Shown here piece by piece: positions 3,538 to 33,110 of a stretch of DNA of 33,110 bases (position 1 is its first letter; each line of letters starts with the position of its first letter). This stretch comes from an uncultured Bacteroidota bacterium. Its GTDB lineage: Bacteria; Bacteroidota; Bacteroidia; UBA4408. A program made the position numbers and the translations under genes. The notes beneath the pieces were generated by a model. The model did not search any database. It was not told the DNA's origin and was given only the letters and a program-made list of their open reading frames with translations. The stretch is taken from NCBI GenBank assembly GCA_903842515.1, contig CAIMMJ010000083.1, positions 1 to 33,110 of the forward strand, in the 5' to 3' direction.

Positions 3538-4818
3538 ATGAAAAACCTGTTTAAAAGCCTCTCGCTTAATTTTGAATATGGCAAACTAAAAATTCTACTA
3601 TTTATTTTTTGGCTTGTCTTAGTTTTGTTCGATTCAACTGCTAAAGGCGATTTTGAAATATTTATTCAAGCATCAAAAGATTTGTTTGACTCAAAAAATA
3701 TCTACACTGCTTTTTACAATAACTATTTTCACTACTACTATAGTGTTCTATTTGCAGTAATTATATATCCACTTACTTTTTTGAATTTTTATTTTGTGAA
3801 GGTAATATGGATGATTTGTAATTATATTTTTACATACAGAATATTAAAAAACGGTGCTTTGTTTTTAAATTTAAAAGATGAAAATAACAAAGCAAAATTC
3901 ACAGTTTTGTTTGTTTCATTTTTATTAGTTTTTGCCCTATGGCACAGAAATATTGCATTGGCACAAGTAACAATATTTGTACTTTTTTTGATGTTGGAGA
4001 GCTTTACTTTAATTTTAAAAAACCATGTTCTTTTACCTGCTCTTTTGCTTGCCTTTGGTATTGATTTTAAAATTATGCCAATTGTATGTTTGCCTTATTT
4101 TCTCTACAGAGGATACAATAAAGTTGTATTTACAAGTTTAATTTTTTTGCTTACATTACTCTTATTACCTTCTGTTTTTATTGGAATAGATTTTAATTTG
4201 TTTCTTTTAAATGAAAGATGGAATTTAATTAACCCAAGTAATACAGAACATATTTTAGACGTGGCTGAACGAAGTTTTCATTCCATCACAACTTTTTTAT
4301 CTGTTTTGTTGGTTGAAAACACACATGAAGTTTATGCATTAAAATACAAAAGAAATTTGCTAGATATTTCGCAAGAAGAACTTAGATATGTAATTCTTTT
4401 TACTAGGTTGTTTTTTGTGCTTCTAAGTTTCGTTTTTTTAAGAGCCAGAATTTTTAAATCACCTTCAAAAAAAATAGATTGGTGGTACGAATGGAGTTAT
4501 ATTTTTATTGCTATTCCTCTTATATTTCCCCACCAGCAACACTATGCATTTTATATGGTGTTTCCTGCAATTTTATATTTAGTTAATTTTGGAAGAATTA
4601 ATTATTTTAACGATAAAAATCCATCAAAAAGCAGAGAGAGGTACATGTATTTTGTTGGCATGTCCTTAATTTTTTTACTCTTAAATAGTCATTTTTTACT
4701 TGGAACATTTAGGGAGTATTACGACCATTACAAAACGCTAACCTATGGTGTTTTTTTAGTAATAGTTATTTTAGCGCTTTGTCCTCCCAGTAAAATTAAA
4801 TATGCTGTAGAAAATTAA
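3538..4818 (+). CDS. Polytopic membrane protein, GT87/DUF2029-like glycosyltransferase
   Basis: Many hydrophobic helices; DFEIFIQASKDLFDSKNIY near the N-terminus and FGIDFKIMPIVCLPYFLYRG resemble GT-C/GT87 proteins. Confidence 0.7.
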   Translation: MKNLFKSLSLNFEYGKLKILLFIFWLVLVLFDSTAKGDFEIFIQASKDLFDSKNIYTAFYNNYFHYYYSVLFAVIIYPLTFLNFYFVKVIWMICNYIFTYRILKNGALFLNLKDENNKAKFTVLFVSFLLVFALWHRNIALAQVTIFVLFLMLESFTLILKNHVLLPALLLAFGIDFKIMPIVCLPYFLYRGYNKVVFTSLIFLLTLLLLPSVFIGIDFNLFLLNERWNLINPSNTEHILDVAERSFHSITTFLSVLLVENTHEVYALKYKRNLLDISQEELRYVILFTRLFFVLLSFVFLRARIFKSPSKKIDWWYEWSYIFIAIPLIFPHQQHYAFYMVFPAILYLVNFGRINYFNDKNPSKSRERYMYFVGMSLIFLLLNSHFLLGTFREYYDHYKTLTYGVFLVIVILALCPPSKIKYAVEN

Positions 4819-6497
4819 TTTTTGATTAATTTTCTGGTATAAATTTTATCTTTTGTACTTAAACTAAAAAAATAAATGCCTCTAGAAAGACTTTGAGCAA
4901 TTGGAATATTTATTTGATTATATGATTTTGATGTTGCAAAATAGTTGTGCTCAAAAATCTTTTTACCCAATGCATCTGCAATTACTATTCTAAAGCTTTG
5001 CGTATCGGCAGAGTAAAAATTAAAATTTAGATTGTCTGTGAATGGATTTGGCGAAAGAAGAATGTTTTCGGCATTTGGATACTGCTCCAATTTTTTTCCT
5101 TGTAAAATAAAGTCTGCAGCAGAATAGTTTGGTATTCCCCATCCCAAAGAAGAATCGGGATTTGAAAATTGAGATGATGTGTTTTTTATTGCTTCAATAA
5201 GTTCCATATTAGAATAAGTTGGGTTGGCTTGCCACAAGCAGGCACTCATTCCTGCAATAATTGGACAAGAAAATGACGTTCCATTTGCTCCTCCAACACT
5301 TCCGTTTTGATTAAAAACAGTTGCTCCCACCGCCAAGGCTGCTACATCTGGTTTTAATCTGTTATCTGCAGTGGGGCCATAAGAAGAAAAACTTGCTCTG
5401 GTTAAATTAGAATTTACACCCCCAATACAAAATACACTGTCGCCATCTGCAGGAGCGCCCAATTTCTGCCAAGAATTTCCACCAGAATTTCCTGCACTGT
5501 TCACTACTAGAATCCCTTTAGAAGCGGCAAAATCAGCTCCTCGTGTGCATATTGCCGTATTACCATCTAAATTTGCTCTGGTGTAGTTAATTGCTGCATC
5601 ATCAAAGGTGGTATAACCTAAAGAGGAATTTATAACATCTGCTCCGCAACTGTCGGCATATTCTGCTCCTTCTACCCAATAAAACTCTTCTGATTTGCTT
5701 TCGGGAGAGGCATCTTCTGTTCTTAAAAGCAAATAAGATGCTTTGGGTGCAGTTCCAATAAAGGAACCCGGAACCAAAGCTGCCATGCAACTTAGTGTAG
5801 ATGTTCCGTGCGAGTTGTAAGAATATACAAAAGGACTTCTGTTTACAAAATCATAAGTAGAAATAATTCTGTTTTCGTTTCTAAGGCTGTCAAATCCCGC
5901 AATAATATCAACACCCGGAAATCCAGCATCCAAAACAGCAATTAGCATTCCTTGTCCTCTGTAGCCGTTTTGATGAAGCTGCATACCACCAATCATATTT
6001 ATTTGTTGATAGCCTTGCCCATAATCAAAAGCCAAAGCAGAGGCAACTCTGTTTTGAGAATTCGTTGACGGGCTAAAAGTTTCTAAATTAAATTTGTTTT
6101 CATCAGAAATAAATGTTGAATTTCTATTTAATGGTAAATTTGAAATTACAAAAGGCAACTCATTTATATCAGTTAATTGTTGTGGATTTGAAATTAAAAC
6201 AGAAATGCTGTTTAACCATTTGCTTTTTCCAATTACTGTTGCACCTGTAGCAGCAACTTGGCTTATGTAGGATGAAGTAAGAGGTAAATCGTTTTCAGAA
6301 ATAGAGATATTTCTTGTTAATCGTCTTTGTATAGCTCTTTCTGATAAAAAAGCCTGAGGAACGTCAATGCTAAATCCGTTGTTATTTTTGTCGGTAAAAC
6401 CAATCATGTAAACATCTCCTCCAAGTCCTTGTGAGTGGCTTTTGCAGGTAAAAAACGCGATAAAAATAAAACTAAAAATTAAAAATTTATTTTTCAT
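4815..6497 (-). CDS. Secreted S8 (subtilisin-like) serine peptidase with T9SS type A sorting domain
   Basis: Catalytic motifs AVLDAGFPG (D), SHGTSTLSC (H), GTSFSCPIIAG (S); N-terminal signal peptide; C-terminal LSPNPFTDNLNF...GIYFFSLSTKDKIYTRKLIKN. Confidence 0.92.
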   Translation of the reverse strand: MKNKFLIFSFIFIAFFTCKSHSQGLGGDVYMIGFTDKNNNGFSIDVPQAFLSERAIQRRLTRNISISENDLPLTSSYISQVAATGATVIGKSKWLNSISVLISNPQQLTDINELPFVISNLPLNRNSTFISDENKFNLETFSPSTNSQNRVASALAFDYGQGYQQINMIGGMQLHQNGYRGQGMLIAVLDAGFPGVDIIAGFDSLRNENRIISTYDFVNRSPFVYSYNSHGTSTLSCMAALVPGSFIGTAPKASYLLLRTEDASPESKSEEFYWVEGAEYADSCGADVINSSLGYTTFDDAAINYTRANLDGNTAICTRGADFAASKGILVVNSAGNSGGNSWQKLGAPADGDSVFCIGGVNSNLTRASFSSYGPTADNRLKPDVAALAVGATVFNQNGSVGGANGTSFSCPIIAGMSACLWQANPTYSNMELIEAIKNTSSQFSNPDSSLGWGIPNYSAADFILQGKKLEQYPNAENILLSPNPFTDNLNFNFYSADTQSFRIVIADALGKKIFEHNYFATSKSYNQINIPIAQSLSRGIYFFSLSTKDKIYTRKLIKN

Positions 6498-25081: not shown

Positions 25082-25480
25082 TTGCAATTGACAAAACAAG
25101 AACACATAGAACATTGGAAAAATGGTGCCGAAGACTCTTGGCAATCTGCACTGGTGTTGATGCATAGCAATCATAATTCAATGGCTGCCTTTTGTTTTCA
25201 TTTGAGCATAGAAAAACTATTGAAAGGCATTTGGGTCAAAAACAATGAAGGCAATTTCCCTCCAAGAATACATAATTTAATAACCTTACACAATGGCGCC
25301 AATTTAAATTTAGAACCAGATATTTTAGCAGAGTTTTCTTCAATAAATTCTTGGAATTTAGAGGGACGTTAAACTGAATATCGAACTAAAATGTATCTTG
25401 TAATTAACAAACAATTTTTAGATTCAAAAATAGAAAACCTAACAAAAATAAAAACATGCTTACTAGAGATATTGCACTAA
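25082..25480 (+). pseudogene. HEPN domain protein interrupted by in-frame TAA at 25370-25372
   Basis: ORF to 25372 encodes the HEPN core (MAAFCFHLSIEKLLKGIWVKNNEGNFPPRIHNLITLH); the same frame continues after TAA as TEYRTKMYLVINKQFLDSKIENLTKIKTCLLEILH to a TAA ending at 25480, matching the expected HEPN C-terminal helix. Confidence 0.7.
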
Positions 25481-25821
25481 CCCTTGCAAAGAATTTTATT
25501 AATGATTTAAAAAGTTTGGGTTATTATCCTAATCAAGTTTATATGTTTGGCTCAATGGTAAAAGGTAACATACATGAATATTCTGATATTGATTTAGCTA
25601 TATGGGATAAAAAATTAACAGGTGCTATGCACTTAGATTATGATACACTAAAACTGTTGTTGGTAAAACACCCAAACATTGAATTACACCCCTACAACAC
25701 TGCCGACACCGAAGAAACCAACCCTTTTATTGAAGTAATTAAAAAAACAGGAATACAAATACCCATTAACGATATTAATGTGGTGAATGAGCCTAATGAA
25801 GATTTCGATAATGAGAAATGA
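25456..25821 (+). CDS. MNT-type minimal nucleotidyltransferase domain protein
   Basis: MFGSMVKGNIHEYSDIDLAIW fits GSx10DxD of minimal nucleotidyltransferases; overlaps the 3' end of the extended HEPN frame. Confidence 0.88.
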   Translation: MLTRDIALTLAKNFINDLKSLGYYPNQVYMFGSMVKGNIHEYSDIDLAIWDKKLTGAMHLDYDTLKLLLVKHPNIELHPYNTADTEETNPFIEVIKKTGIQIPINDINVVNEPNEDFDNEK

Positions 25822-31088: not shown

Positions 31089-31198
31089 GATATTTTTTGC
31101 ATACAAGGTAATAAATTCAGAGAAAAAATTTCAGAGAAGGTTTATGCAATCGTAATAACAATTTATTTTTTGTTATAGTGTTGTTTTTCAGTATTTTG

Positions 31199-31270
31199 TA
31201 GCCTCGAAGGGAATCGAACCCCCACCTAGAGAACCGGAATCTCTTGTTCTATCCATTAAACTACGAAGCC
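31199..31270 (-). tRNA. tRNA-Arg(CCG)
   Basis: Minus strand GGCTTCG TA GTTTAATGGATAGAAC ... AGAGA TTCCGGT TCTCT ... GGGGGTTCGATTCCC... CGAGGCT A; anticodon loop TTCCGGT gives CCG; CCA not encoded. Confidence 0.92.
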
Positions 31271-31408: not shown

Positions 31409-31792
31409 GTGGATAATTTATTAATTGAAGAAACTGCAAATACTCCTAAAGTTGAGTTGAATGCTTCTGGAAAATCTCTACTTTTCAAGGGAAAATCTAT
31501 TCCCGAAAACACCATAAAATTCTATACTCCAGTAAAAGCGTGGCTAGATGAGTATTTTAATTCTCCGGCAGCCGAAACCACATTAGATATTCACTTAGAA
31601 TATTTTAATACCAGTTCGGCCAAAGTAATTATTGATATTCTTAAAAAGCTAGTTCAATTGCACAACAATGGAAATACTAAATTAACGATTGTTTGGAAGT
31701 ACGATTCAAATGATTCTGATATGCAAGAAGCAGGAGAAGACATGATGAGTTTGCTGAAATTTGATTTTGAGTTTTTAGCTGTAGCAGATTAA
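31409..31792 (+). CDS. SiaC-family (DUF1987) regulatory phosphoprotein
   Basis: GKSIPENTIKFYTPVKAWLDEYF...TTLDIHLEYFNTSSAKVIIDILKKL is typical of DUF1987; conserved NTSSAK phosphosite; GTG start. Confidence 0.85.
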   Translation: MDNLLIEETANTPKVELNASGKSLLFKGKSIPENTIKFYTPVKAWLDEYFNSPAAETTLDIHLEYFNTSSAKVIIDILKKLVQLHNNGNTKLTIVWKYDSNDSDMQEAGEDMMSLLKFDFEFLAVAD

Positions 31793-31794
31793 TA

Positions 31795-32682
31795 ATGCTT
31801 TACCTTTTTAATGATAATCAAACCCAAAGGGCTGAAGCGCTCAAAGAAGTACGTTCTATTTTGATTAGTGCTTCATTTAATTTGTTTATCAATGAACACG
31901 TTAATGAAACCACTGGTTTTTTAGAAACACTAAACAAAGGTTTAGAAAATAGTAAAGGAGCCGTAATGATTCTTTCAGAAGAGTATGGCGATAAACTAAA
32001 TTTTGAAAATGGAGAAGAACTTTCCTTTGCTGAGTATCAATTTAATCAGGTTATAAAAAGGTGTGCCATCAATCCAAACTTTAAATTATTTGTTTGGTAT
32101 CCGCCTCATTTAGCCAAGAATTTACCTGACGAACAACAAATAAATTTTATTAATAAAATTAGAAATTCTTTGGGCAAAAACATGGTGTTTACCAATGTGT
32201 CCTCGCCCATAGAATTTGTTGACGATATAAGGTCATCTTTTGAAGAGCAAGAAACAAAGGCCTATGATTTAAAAGAAACTGAAGTGTTTTTAATTAGCAA
32301 TCAACTCGACGAGAGCGAAGCCGAAGATGTGGCAGATATGCTTAGAGACATAGTTTCTACAGAAAACGTTAGCATTGTGCAAGACAGTGACATTGATTAT
32401 TCTGAAATGTGTGCTCAACAAATTAAAAAAAGCAAATTGGCAGTTGTTTATTTTAAAACATCATCGGATTGGGCAGTTCCTTTTGCTCAAGAAATTTGGA
32501 AAAAAGTGGGCGGGGCCGATACCAAAACACCTATTCTTTTAATTGGAGATTCGGACCCCGATTACAACAAAGAAGTAAAACTAAGGGCACCCAAAGTAGT
32601 GTGTGTAATTGTGGATGGAATTTTAATTCCGCTAGAAATAAAAGTTCAATACGACAAAGCCAAAGAAGGTCTAATATTGTAA
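31795..32682 (+). CDS. Protein with two TIR/DUF4062-like alpha/beta domains
   Basis: First half: SILISASFNLFIN...LENSKGAVMILSEEYG...NFKLFVWYP; second half: TEVFLISNQLDESEAEDVADMLR...CAQQIKKSKLAVVYFKTSSDWAVPFAQEIWKK...TPILLIGD. Only 2 nt after the SiaC-like gene. Confidence 0.5.
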   Translation: MLYLFNDNQTQRAEALKEVRSILISASFNLFINEHVNETTGFLETLNKGLENSKGAVMILSEEYGDKLNFENGEELSFAEYQFNQVIKRCAINPNFKLFVWYPPHLAKNLPDEQQINFINKIRNSLGKNMVFTNVSSPIEFVDDIRSSFEEQETKAYDLKETEVFLISNQLDESEAEDVADMLRDIVSTENVSIVQDSDIDYSEMCAQQIKKSKLAVVYFKTSSDWAVPFAQEIWKKVGGADTKTPILLIGDSDPDYNKEVKLRAPKVVCVIVDGILIPLEIKVQYDKAKEGLIL

Positions 32683-32689
32683 AAAAAAG

Positions 32690-33110
32690 ATGGAACAAAA
32701 GTTTTGTCCTTATCCCGGCCTTAGGCCATTTAACGAAGAAGAATCTATTTTCTTTAAAGGAAGAGATACTCAGGTTTCTAAGGTAGTTAGCCTACTAGAA
32801 AAGAATAGATTTTTGATGATTACCGGTGCCAGTGGCGATGGAAAATCTTCCTTGACATACGCTGGCTTAATACCCAATGCCAGAGCGGGTTTTTTTAAGG
32901 CAAAATTTAATAATTGGCGAATAGCAGATTTTAGGCCGGAAAGAACACCACTAGAAAACTTAGTATACACACTTACTAAAGCGCTTCAAATTCCAAAACA
33001 AGAAATTGAGCAGGCCGTAAAGGCTGGTTTTTCTTCTTTGGTAAATCTTTATAAAAATAGCAAGTGGCACGTTGATTACCTTTCTGATGAATGGTTACTG
33101 GCAGACGAAA
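32690..33110 (+). CDS. nSTAND1-type NTPase, N-terminal part (open at window edge)
   Basis: Manual translation: MEQKFCPYPGLRPFNEEESIFFKGRDTQVSKVVSLLEKNRFLMITGASGDGKSSLTYAGLIPNARAGFF..., i.e. YPGLRPF + GR + Walker A GASGDGKSS + AGLIP. Not in the ORF track because no stop lies in the window. Confidence 0.88.
   Translation, partial: MEQKFCPYPGLRPFNEEESIFFKGRDTQVSKVVSLLEKNRFLMITGASGDGKSSLTYAGLIPNARAGFFKAKFNNWRIADFRPERTPLENLVYTLTKALQIPKQEIEQAVKAGFSSLVNLYKNSKWHVDYLSDEWLLADE

Follow-up and report, generated by a model that had tools for sequence, protein, structure and literature searches.

When STAND NTPases or TIR domains turn up in bacteria, immunity is almost always the default reading. STAND NTPases of the nSTAND1 clade are described together with TIR domains in conflict systems (Kaur et al. 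2020, 2021; PMC7159879, PMC8195603), and DUF4062 proteins are reported to be TIR-like NADases that use a catalytic glutamate and work in defence (PMC13174449). Other systems close to the locus described here are partner switches. T68 is the phosphorylated residue of Pseudomonas SiaC, and SiaA and SiaB act on it (PMC7647112); SiaC serves as activator of the neighbouring SiaD, and a modulating role toward adjacent proteins has been proposed for DUF1987 proteins (PMC8457831). RsbU-type phosphatases are activated by partner binding to their coiled-coil linkers (PMC12143880). We found an operon in an uncultured Bacteroidota bacterium whose parts each come from a known family; the combination of a TIR-like protein, nSTAND1, a phosphatase and SiaC is apparently undescribed, and the open-access literature searched held no account of it. 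The operon probably senses something in the cell envelope and flips a SiaC switch, and is probably not an ordinary phage-defence cassette.

The window, the whole 33,110-nt stretch of DNA analysed, is one contig (C83) of a 3.18-Mb genome in 440 contigs. Three genes of the operon lie at its right edge:

31409..31792, plus strand: siaC-like gene (DUF1987), GTG start, 127 aa; Pfam SiaC 3.4e-37
31795..32682, plus strand: gene of a tandem TIR-like candidate adaptor, 295 aa; sub-threshold Pfam TIR_2/DUF4062 matches, AlphaFold2, Foldseek and family profile
32690..33110 (window end), plus strand: 5' end of an nSTAND1 NTPase gene, ATG start; Pfam nSTAND1 1.6e-25, Walker A

The genes are 2 nt (siaC-like to TIR-like) and 7 nt (TIR-like to nSTAND1) apart, as the first-pass annotation had it. 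Its other calls on the outer genes, SiaC for the first and a Walker A-bearing nSTAND1 frame open to the window end for the third, agree with the Pfam matches listed, with a conserved phospho-threonine T68 and with an intact Walker A motif (GASGDGKS at residue 46). Scored separately, the two parts of the protein reach 91 and 151 bits against the nSTAND1 domain (curated cut-off 27.1). The window SiaC clears the Pfam cut-off easily (127 bits versus 24.5). Since it reaches only 81 bits against the cut-off of 150 of the SiaC equivalog model, we class it, judging by sequence, as a member of the SiaC family and not as a SiaC orthologue. Structures of P. aeruginosa SiaC (6kko/6k4f) match it with an E-value of 4e-13 and the NTSS motif in register, so that its predicted phosphorylation site, T68 in FNTSSA, is aligned with LNTSSIK of 6kko. 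Upstream of the siaC-like gene lie a tRNA-Arg gene (31198-31270, minus strand) and atp genes on the other strand. In the window genome, where the surroundings were inspected with a defence island in mind, the flanks also hold, 6 kb off, a HEPN gene with a nucleotidyltransferase (MNT) gene after it (25082-25821; Pfam HEPN 4e-9, NTP_transf_2 2e-7), probably a toxin-antitoxin pair.

The operon continues on a second contig. The last 141 bases of the window are exactly the first 141 of contig C378, and these bases turned up nowhere else; overlaps of this kind are usual between neighbouring assembly contigs. The nSTAND1 frame runs on into C378 (locus L005, 1-3761) to give a 1346-aa protein. The join is sound because a 1379-aa homologue whose gene is not interrupted aligns colinearly, at 38% identity, with residues 1-1328 of this protein. 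Downstream of nSTAND1 on the same locus are:

3847-4428: mazEF-type pair (RHH antitoxin, PemK/MazF toxin), an apparent insertion between nSTAND1 and the GldL-like gene
4444-5400: gene of a GldL-like polytopic membrane protein
5643-6366 (contig end): SiaA-like phosphatase gene, first 241 residues of a SpoIIE-type protein

Extension past position 33110, which the first-pass annotation had proposed as a check, thus yielded a complete nSTAND1, a GldL-like protein and a SiaA-like phosphatase. The phosphatase gene is incomplete, and the last bases of C378 are shared by no other contig of the genome. A copy of the start of the GldL-like gene (35 nt, 89% identical) sits 3 nt past the nSTAND1 stop codon. 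Because this duplication flanks it, the mazEF pair seems to have been inserted into the operon, and the GldL-like gene probably followed nSTAND1 directly before that event. The cassette with its flanking copies (L005, 3765-4478) appears to have entered the operon without breaking the target gene. MazF was considered as the operon's effector and rejected, since the 35-nt flanking duplication points to insertion. The GldL-like protein has no Pfam match; its profile matches the structures of GldL (7sau, 2.6e-4) and PorL (7sat, 0.009), and its membrane segments have the HWPGA motif in common with theirs, which suggests distant homology to GldL/PorL within those segments.

The readable part of the linked phosphatase carries a DCTGHG motif, an N-terminal transmembrane segment (TM) and a long coiled coil. 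Among NCBIfam models it matches SiaA best (4e-27), far below the SiaA equivalog cut-off. SpoIIE proteins of the nSTAND1-adjacent type carry such an N-terminal TM. The window genome encodes 17 SpoIIE genes. A coiled-coil profile, built from 21 phosphatases at TIR-like loci of other genomes with the protein's own sequence left out, gives 136 bits to the linked phosphatase and at most 23 to the other SpoIIE proteins of the genome; because of this gap we assign the linked phosphatase, on sequence, to a distinct subfamily. A SiaB-family kinase (169 bits versus a cut-off of 85) is encoded on a third contig (C8), followed by a second siaC. Hence the first-pass statement that siaA and siaB are missing upstream is correct within the window only: a SiaA-like phosphatase lies downstream on C378 and a SiaB-family kinase elsewhere. 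The genome holds three siaC copies (on C83, C8 and C139), one of which adjoins siaB. The third (C139; L049, 4629-5003) sits among ffh, folD and DUF520, with no siaB or phosphatase nearby.

In the TIR-like protein, the N-terminal half (residues ~1-150) resembles TIR/DUF4062 and the C-terminal half (~155-295) is a second alpha/beta domain. The Pfam matches remain below cut-off (TIR_2: 1.9e-4, 22.4 bits versus 28; DUF4062: 2.9e-4, 21.4 bits versus 24.7), and one relative passes that of DUF4062 (27.1 bits). AlphaFold2 predicts two five-stranded alpha/beta domains with a pLDDT of 91.7, and a pTM of 0.59 makes their relative placement uncertain. Foldseek returns the TIR domains of MAL, RPP1 and RPS4 (probability 0.98-1.00), with moderate E-values and mixed with other Rossmann-like folds. 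The family profile finds almost only TIR/DUF4062 proteins among PDB sequences, all on the N-terminal half, where the KpSwz structure also matches (E-value 0.005). The first-pass reading of the middle gene as TIR/DUF4062-like is thus borne out by structure and profile searches of its product. Profile alignment of the two halves with each other, and with the extra canonical TIR domains of some relatives, gave no significant match; the label 'tandem TIR-like' rests on the predicted model and secondary structure and not on an internal sequence repeat. Glu80 of the window protein probably aligns with the catalytic Glu of KpSwz (E97). Residue 80 is Glu in 6/29 family members (the window protein and five relatives) and another residue in 23/29; residue 82 is Gln in 25/29, and residue 230 in the C-terminal half is never acidic. 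Invariant residues of that half are D172, W226, W235, G239 and G240. We take the TIR-like protein to be mainly an adaptor, with catalysis by the window protein possible.

Every full-length nSTAND1 protein checked has one TM, near residues 555-590 (~559-577 in the window genome). Mean net charge of the flanks is +4.5 before the TM and +0.4 after it, and because of the strongly positive N-terminal flank the protein is predicted to be N-in/C-out, with a C-terminal sensor that is probably periplasmic. Relatives of ~1100 aa have WD40 repeats there, where tested. In the window genome the C-terminal half is predicted to be alpha-helical; its model is poor (pLDDT 64) and consists of alpha-helical repeats that match TPR/PPR-like solenoids with low TM-scores. 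For these reasons only 'alpha-helical repeat' is retained from it.

We found the TIR-like gene in 35 of 389 sampled genomes of the class Bacteroidia and, in named assemblies, at 51 loci that belong almost without exception to Bacteroidota metagenome genomes. The locus counts that follow combine these 51 (L078-L128) with five further loci, and since some assemblies appear in both searches they do not represent fully independent lineages. Of 56 unfused loci, 51 are long enough to show an nSTAND1 gene after the TIR-like gene, and in 38 it follows directly, mostly after short gaps or with 4-base overlaps; the two are fused in seven GTDB families. Among the 28 unfused loci that offer 8 kb or more of downstream sequence, 21 have a SpoIIE gene within the next six same-strand genes, where about one would be expected at 17 SpoIIE per genome, the number in the window genome. 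The other 7 of the 28 have no SpoIIE nearby, and among them are those with an extra canonical TIR domain, which in a few genomes precedes the TIR-like protein. A soluble SpoIIE directly follows the TIR-like gene in 7 loci. The unit conserved across Bacteroidia is therefore the TIR-like gene, nSTAND1 and a SpoIIE/SiaA-like phosphatase. Four types of locus can be distinguished:

Type i: TIR-like gene, nSTAND1 of ~1100 aa, outer-membrane barrel protein, lipoprotein or Kelch protein, SpoIIE
Type ii (the window genome's): TIR-like gene, nSTAND1 of ~1350-1410 aa, GldL-like protein, SpoIIE
Type iii: nSTAND1, then two genes of the same sizes, a series of secreted proteins with type IX sorting (tested for one of them), TIR-like gene, soluble SpoIIE
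Type iv: TIR-like protein fused to the N-terminus of nSTAND1, ~1500 aa, seven families; no SpoIIE in the part seen

Secreted proteins of ~300 aa with type IX sorting tails and a PCMD domain form tandem arrays of up to five, which adjoin TIR-like and SpoIIE genes (L058, 1158-6223; L061, 5659-8559; L103, L106, L107); they are possible surface ligands of the system. On a Hymenobacter tibetensis plasmid (NZ_CP094670.1, L150, 737-6651), a TIR plus TIR-like protein is encoded next to a 1440-aa protein. This was the only copy in the plasmid collection, and the phage search returned no homologue.

The siaC-like gene is not part of the conserved unit. It directly adjoins the TIR-like gene only in the window genome; at two other loci a siaC is near, which is about chance level. 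In L083 it lies upstream at a distance of three genes, and in L107 it is a neighbour of SpoIIE on the opposite strand; the L083 SiaC resembles the siaB-linked SiaC more than that of the window. SiaC as a conserved neighbour was accordingly dropped (2 of ~45 loci), and the SiaC-TIR-nSTAND1 trio of the first-pass annotation is not conserved. Because of this pattern the link of SiaC to the TIR-like/nSTAND1 system is statistical. All 35 genomes with the TIR-like gene contain SiaC, versus 211/389 overall (54%), and all 35 contain SiaB/DUF6272, versus 212/389. For the SiaC co-occurrence the hypergeometric test gives 1e-10 by genome, 2e-7 by genus and only ~5e-4 by family (families counted by hand), and SiaB/SiaC presence also tracks phylogeny. 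Of the phosphorylation-gated STAND/TIR operon first suggested, the operon and the link to phosphorylation stand, the latter through the conserved phosphatase and the constant presence of SiaB and SiaC.

The sequences themselves give us the set of genes with their fusions, the predicted topology, motifs that are intact and the co-occurrence; from these we infer a direction of signalling and an order of events with SiaC as substrate, together with the nature of signal and output. The best explanation, to which we give a probability of about 0.48, is that a transmembrane STAND receptor controls a SiaABC-type partner switch. nSTAND1 would keep its NTPase in the cytoplasm, span the membrane once and hold its C-terminal sensor on the periplasmic side. 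This sensor, presumably a WD40 propeller in many relatives and alpha-helical repeats in the window genome, would adjoin an outer-membrane barrel and a lipoprotein or, here, the GldL-like membrane protein. An envelope signal would drive ATP-dependent nSTAND1 assembly; the cytoplasmic tandem TIR-like protein would join the STAND assembly to the operon's phosphatase via the coiled-coil linker of the latter; the SpoIIE/PP2C domain, once activated, would dephosphorylate SiaC at T68; and SiaC in this state would bind its target until reset by the SiaB kinase encoded elsewhere in the genome. We propose a trans-envelope signalling device because of the envelope partners, the predicted nSTAND1 topology and the dedicated phosphatase. 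The TIR-like protein is the natural candidate for the link because its gene pairs directly with nSTAND1 or with SpoIIE, and the proposed route from signal to SiaC follows from the precedent of coiled-coil switching and from SiaC being the substrate of SiaA. Points against the model are the merely statistical link to SiaC, the seven of 28 long loci that lack a nearby SpoIIE and the poor model of the C-terminal sensor.

The main rival reverses the order: SiaC, dephosphorylated by the linked phosphatase, would be a gate and not the output, binding the TIR-like protein or nSTAND1 and licensing STAND assembly toward some other output. The position of the siaC-like gene, first in the operon and 2 nt from the TIR-like gene, fits a gate on the TIR-like/nSTAND1 pair equally well and counts against the partner-switch model; the SiaC-SiaD precedent and the proposed action of DUF1987 on adjacent proteins (PMC8457831) also suit a gate, as does the genome-wide co-occurrence of SiaC with the TIR-like gene. 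However, SiaC adjacency is not conserved, and the direct TIR-like/SpoIIE pairs in 7 loci suggest that the TIR-like protein acts upstream of the phosphatase; we consider the gate less likely than the partner switch. The same failure of adjacency could instead mean that the siaC-like gene is an unrelated neighbour and that the TIR-like/nSTAND1/SpoIIE set has its own substrate, such as another STAS-like protein. The chance-level proximity at two loci and the three SiaC copies, only one beside siaB, are consistent with so loose an association, but the 2-nt spacing at the window locus, the presence of siaB and siaC in 35/35 genomes with the TIR-like gene and the position of SiaA as closest named relative of the linked phosphatase speak against it, and we consider it improbable.

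As an anti-phage or abortive-infection operon, the locus would detect infection through nSTAND1 and kill through NAD hydrolysis by the TIR-like protein, like the DUF4062 Swarozyc or TIR-STAND systems. The TIR/DUF4062-like N-terminal half (DUF4062 proteins being NADases in defence; PMC13174449), Glu80 at the probable position of the KpSwz catalytic Glu, the extra canonical TIR domain of some relatives and the Hymenobacter plasmid copy all point this way. Against it, position 80 is not Glu in most of the family, position 82 is mostly Gln and position 230 never acidic; matches of the operon proteins to PADLOC models are none better than E 0.0077; no phage homologue was found; the receptor is predicted to span the membrane with a periplasmic sensor; and the partner genes encode envelope proteins where nucleases or other effectors would be expected of a defence operon. 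A defence role is thus possible but unsupported, and we consider it improbable. The first-pass annotation had left open signalling or defence; the operon is real, and its immunity half lost ground with the missing PADLOC model, phage homologue and conserved candidate for a TIR catalytic glutamate.

If the partner-switch model is true, this conserved Bacteroidia operon represents a signalling use of the same STAND/TIR parts and offers a concrete input for the SiaB/SiaC and SpoIIE proteins that are orphans in Bacteroidota in large numbers. Its predictions on topology, binding partners and SiaC dephosphorylation are directly testable. We also propose, tentatively, a new signalling class, in which a STAND ATPase would act as a single-pass receptor whose sensor is periplasmic, and a protein of two degenerate TIR domains, as non-enzymatic adaptor, would report the receptor's state of assembly to a PP2C phosphatase with a coiled coil and on to a SiaC/SiaB switch; if so, an immune-type architecture has been wired to a partner switch.

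Compared with SiaABC(D) of P. aeruginosa, the system shares the SiaC domain with its T68 phospho-site, a SiaA-like PP2C phosphatase with an N-terminal TM and a SiaB-family kinase in the same genome. However, the window operon has no SiaD-type cyclase, its siaB is unlinked, its phosphatase has one TM and a coiled coil in place of the large sensor of SiaA, and its conserved neighbours encode a STAND NTPase and a TIR-like protein. The RsbU/RsbT/RsbV stress switch likewise combines a SpoIIE-type phosphatase and its coiled-coil linker with control by a partner protein, but the activator proposed here is a STAND/TIR-like membrane complex and not RsbT from the stressosome, and no sigma factor was seen. 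nSTAND1 itself, WD40 or helical repeats and a TIR-type partner are common to the STAND NTPases of conflict systems, from which this system differs by the single conserved membrane span, the tandem non-canonical TIR-like adaptor, the conserved SpoIIE phosphatase and the envelope partners. Swarozyc shares the weak DUF4062 match of the N-terminal half (KpSwz, E 0.005), whereas here there is a second TIR-like domain, the candidate catalytic Glu is not conserved, and STAND and phosphatase genes are neighbours. GldL/PorL, the inner-membrane motor protein of gliding and type IX secretion, has membrane segments with the HWPGA motif in common with the GldL-like protein; the latter has ~7 predicted membrane spans and no GldM partner in the locus. 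Overall, we suggest that the operon relates to the Sia/Rsb partner switches and to STAND signalling rather than to a defence system.
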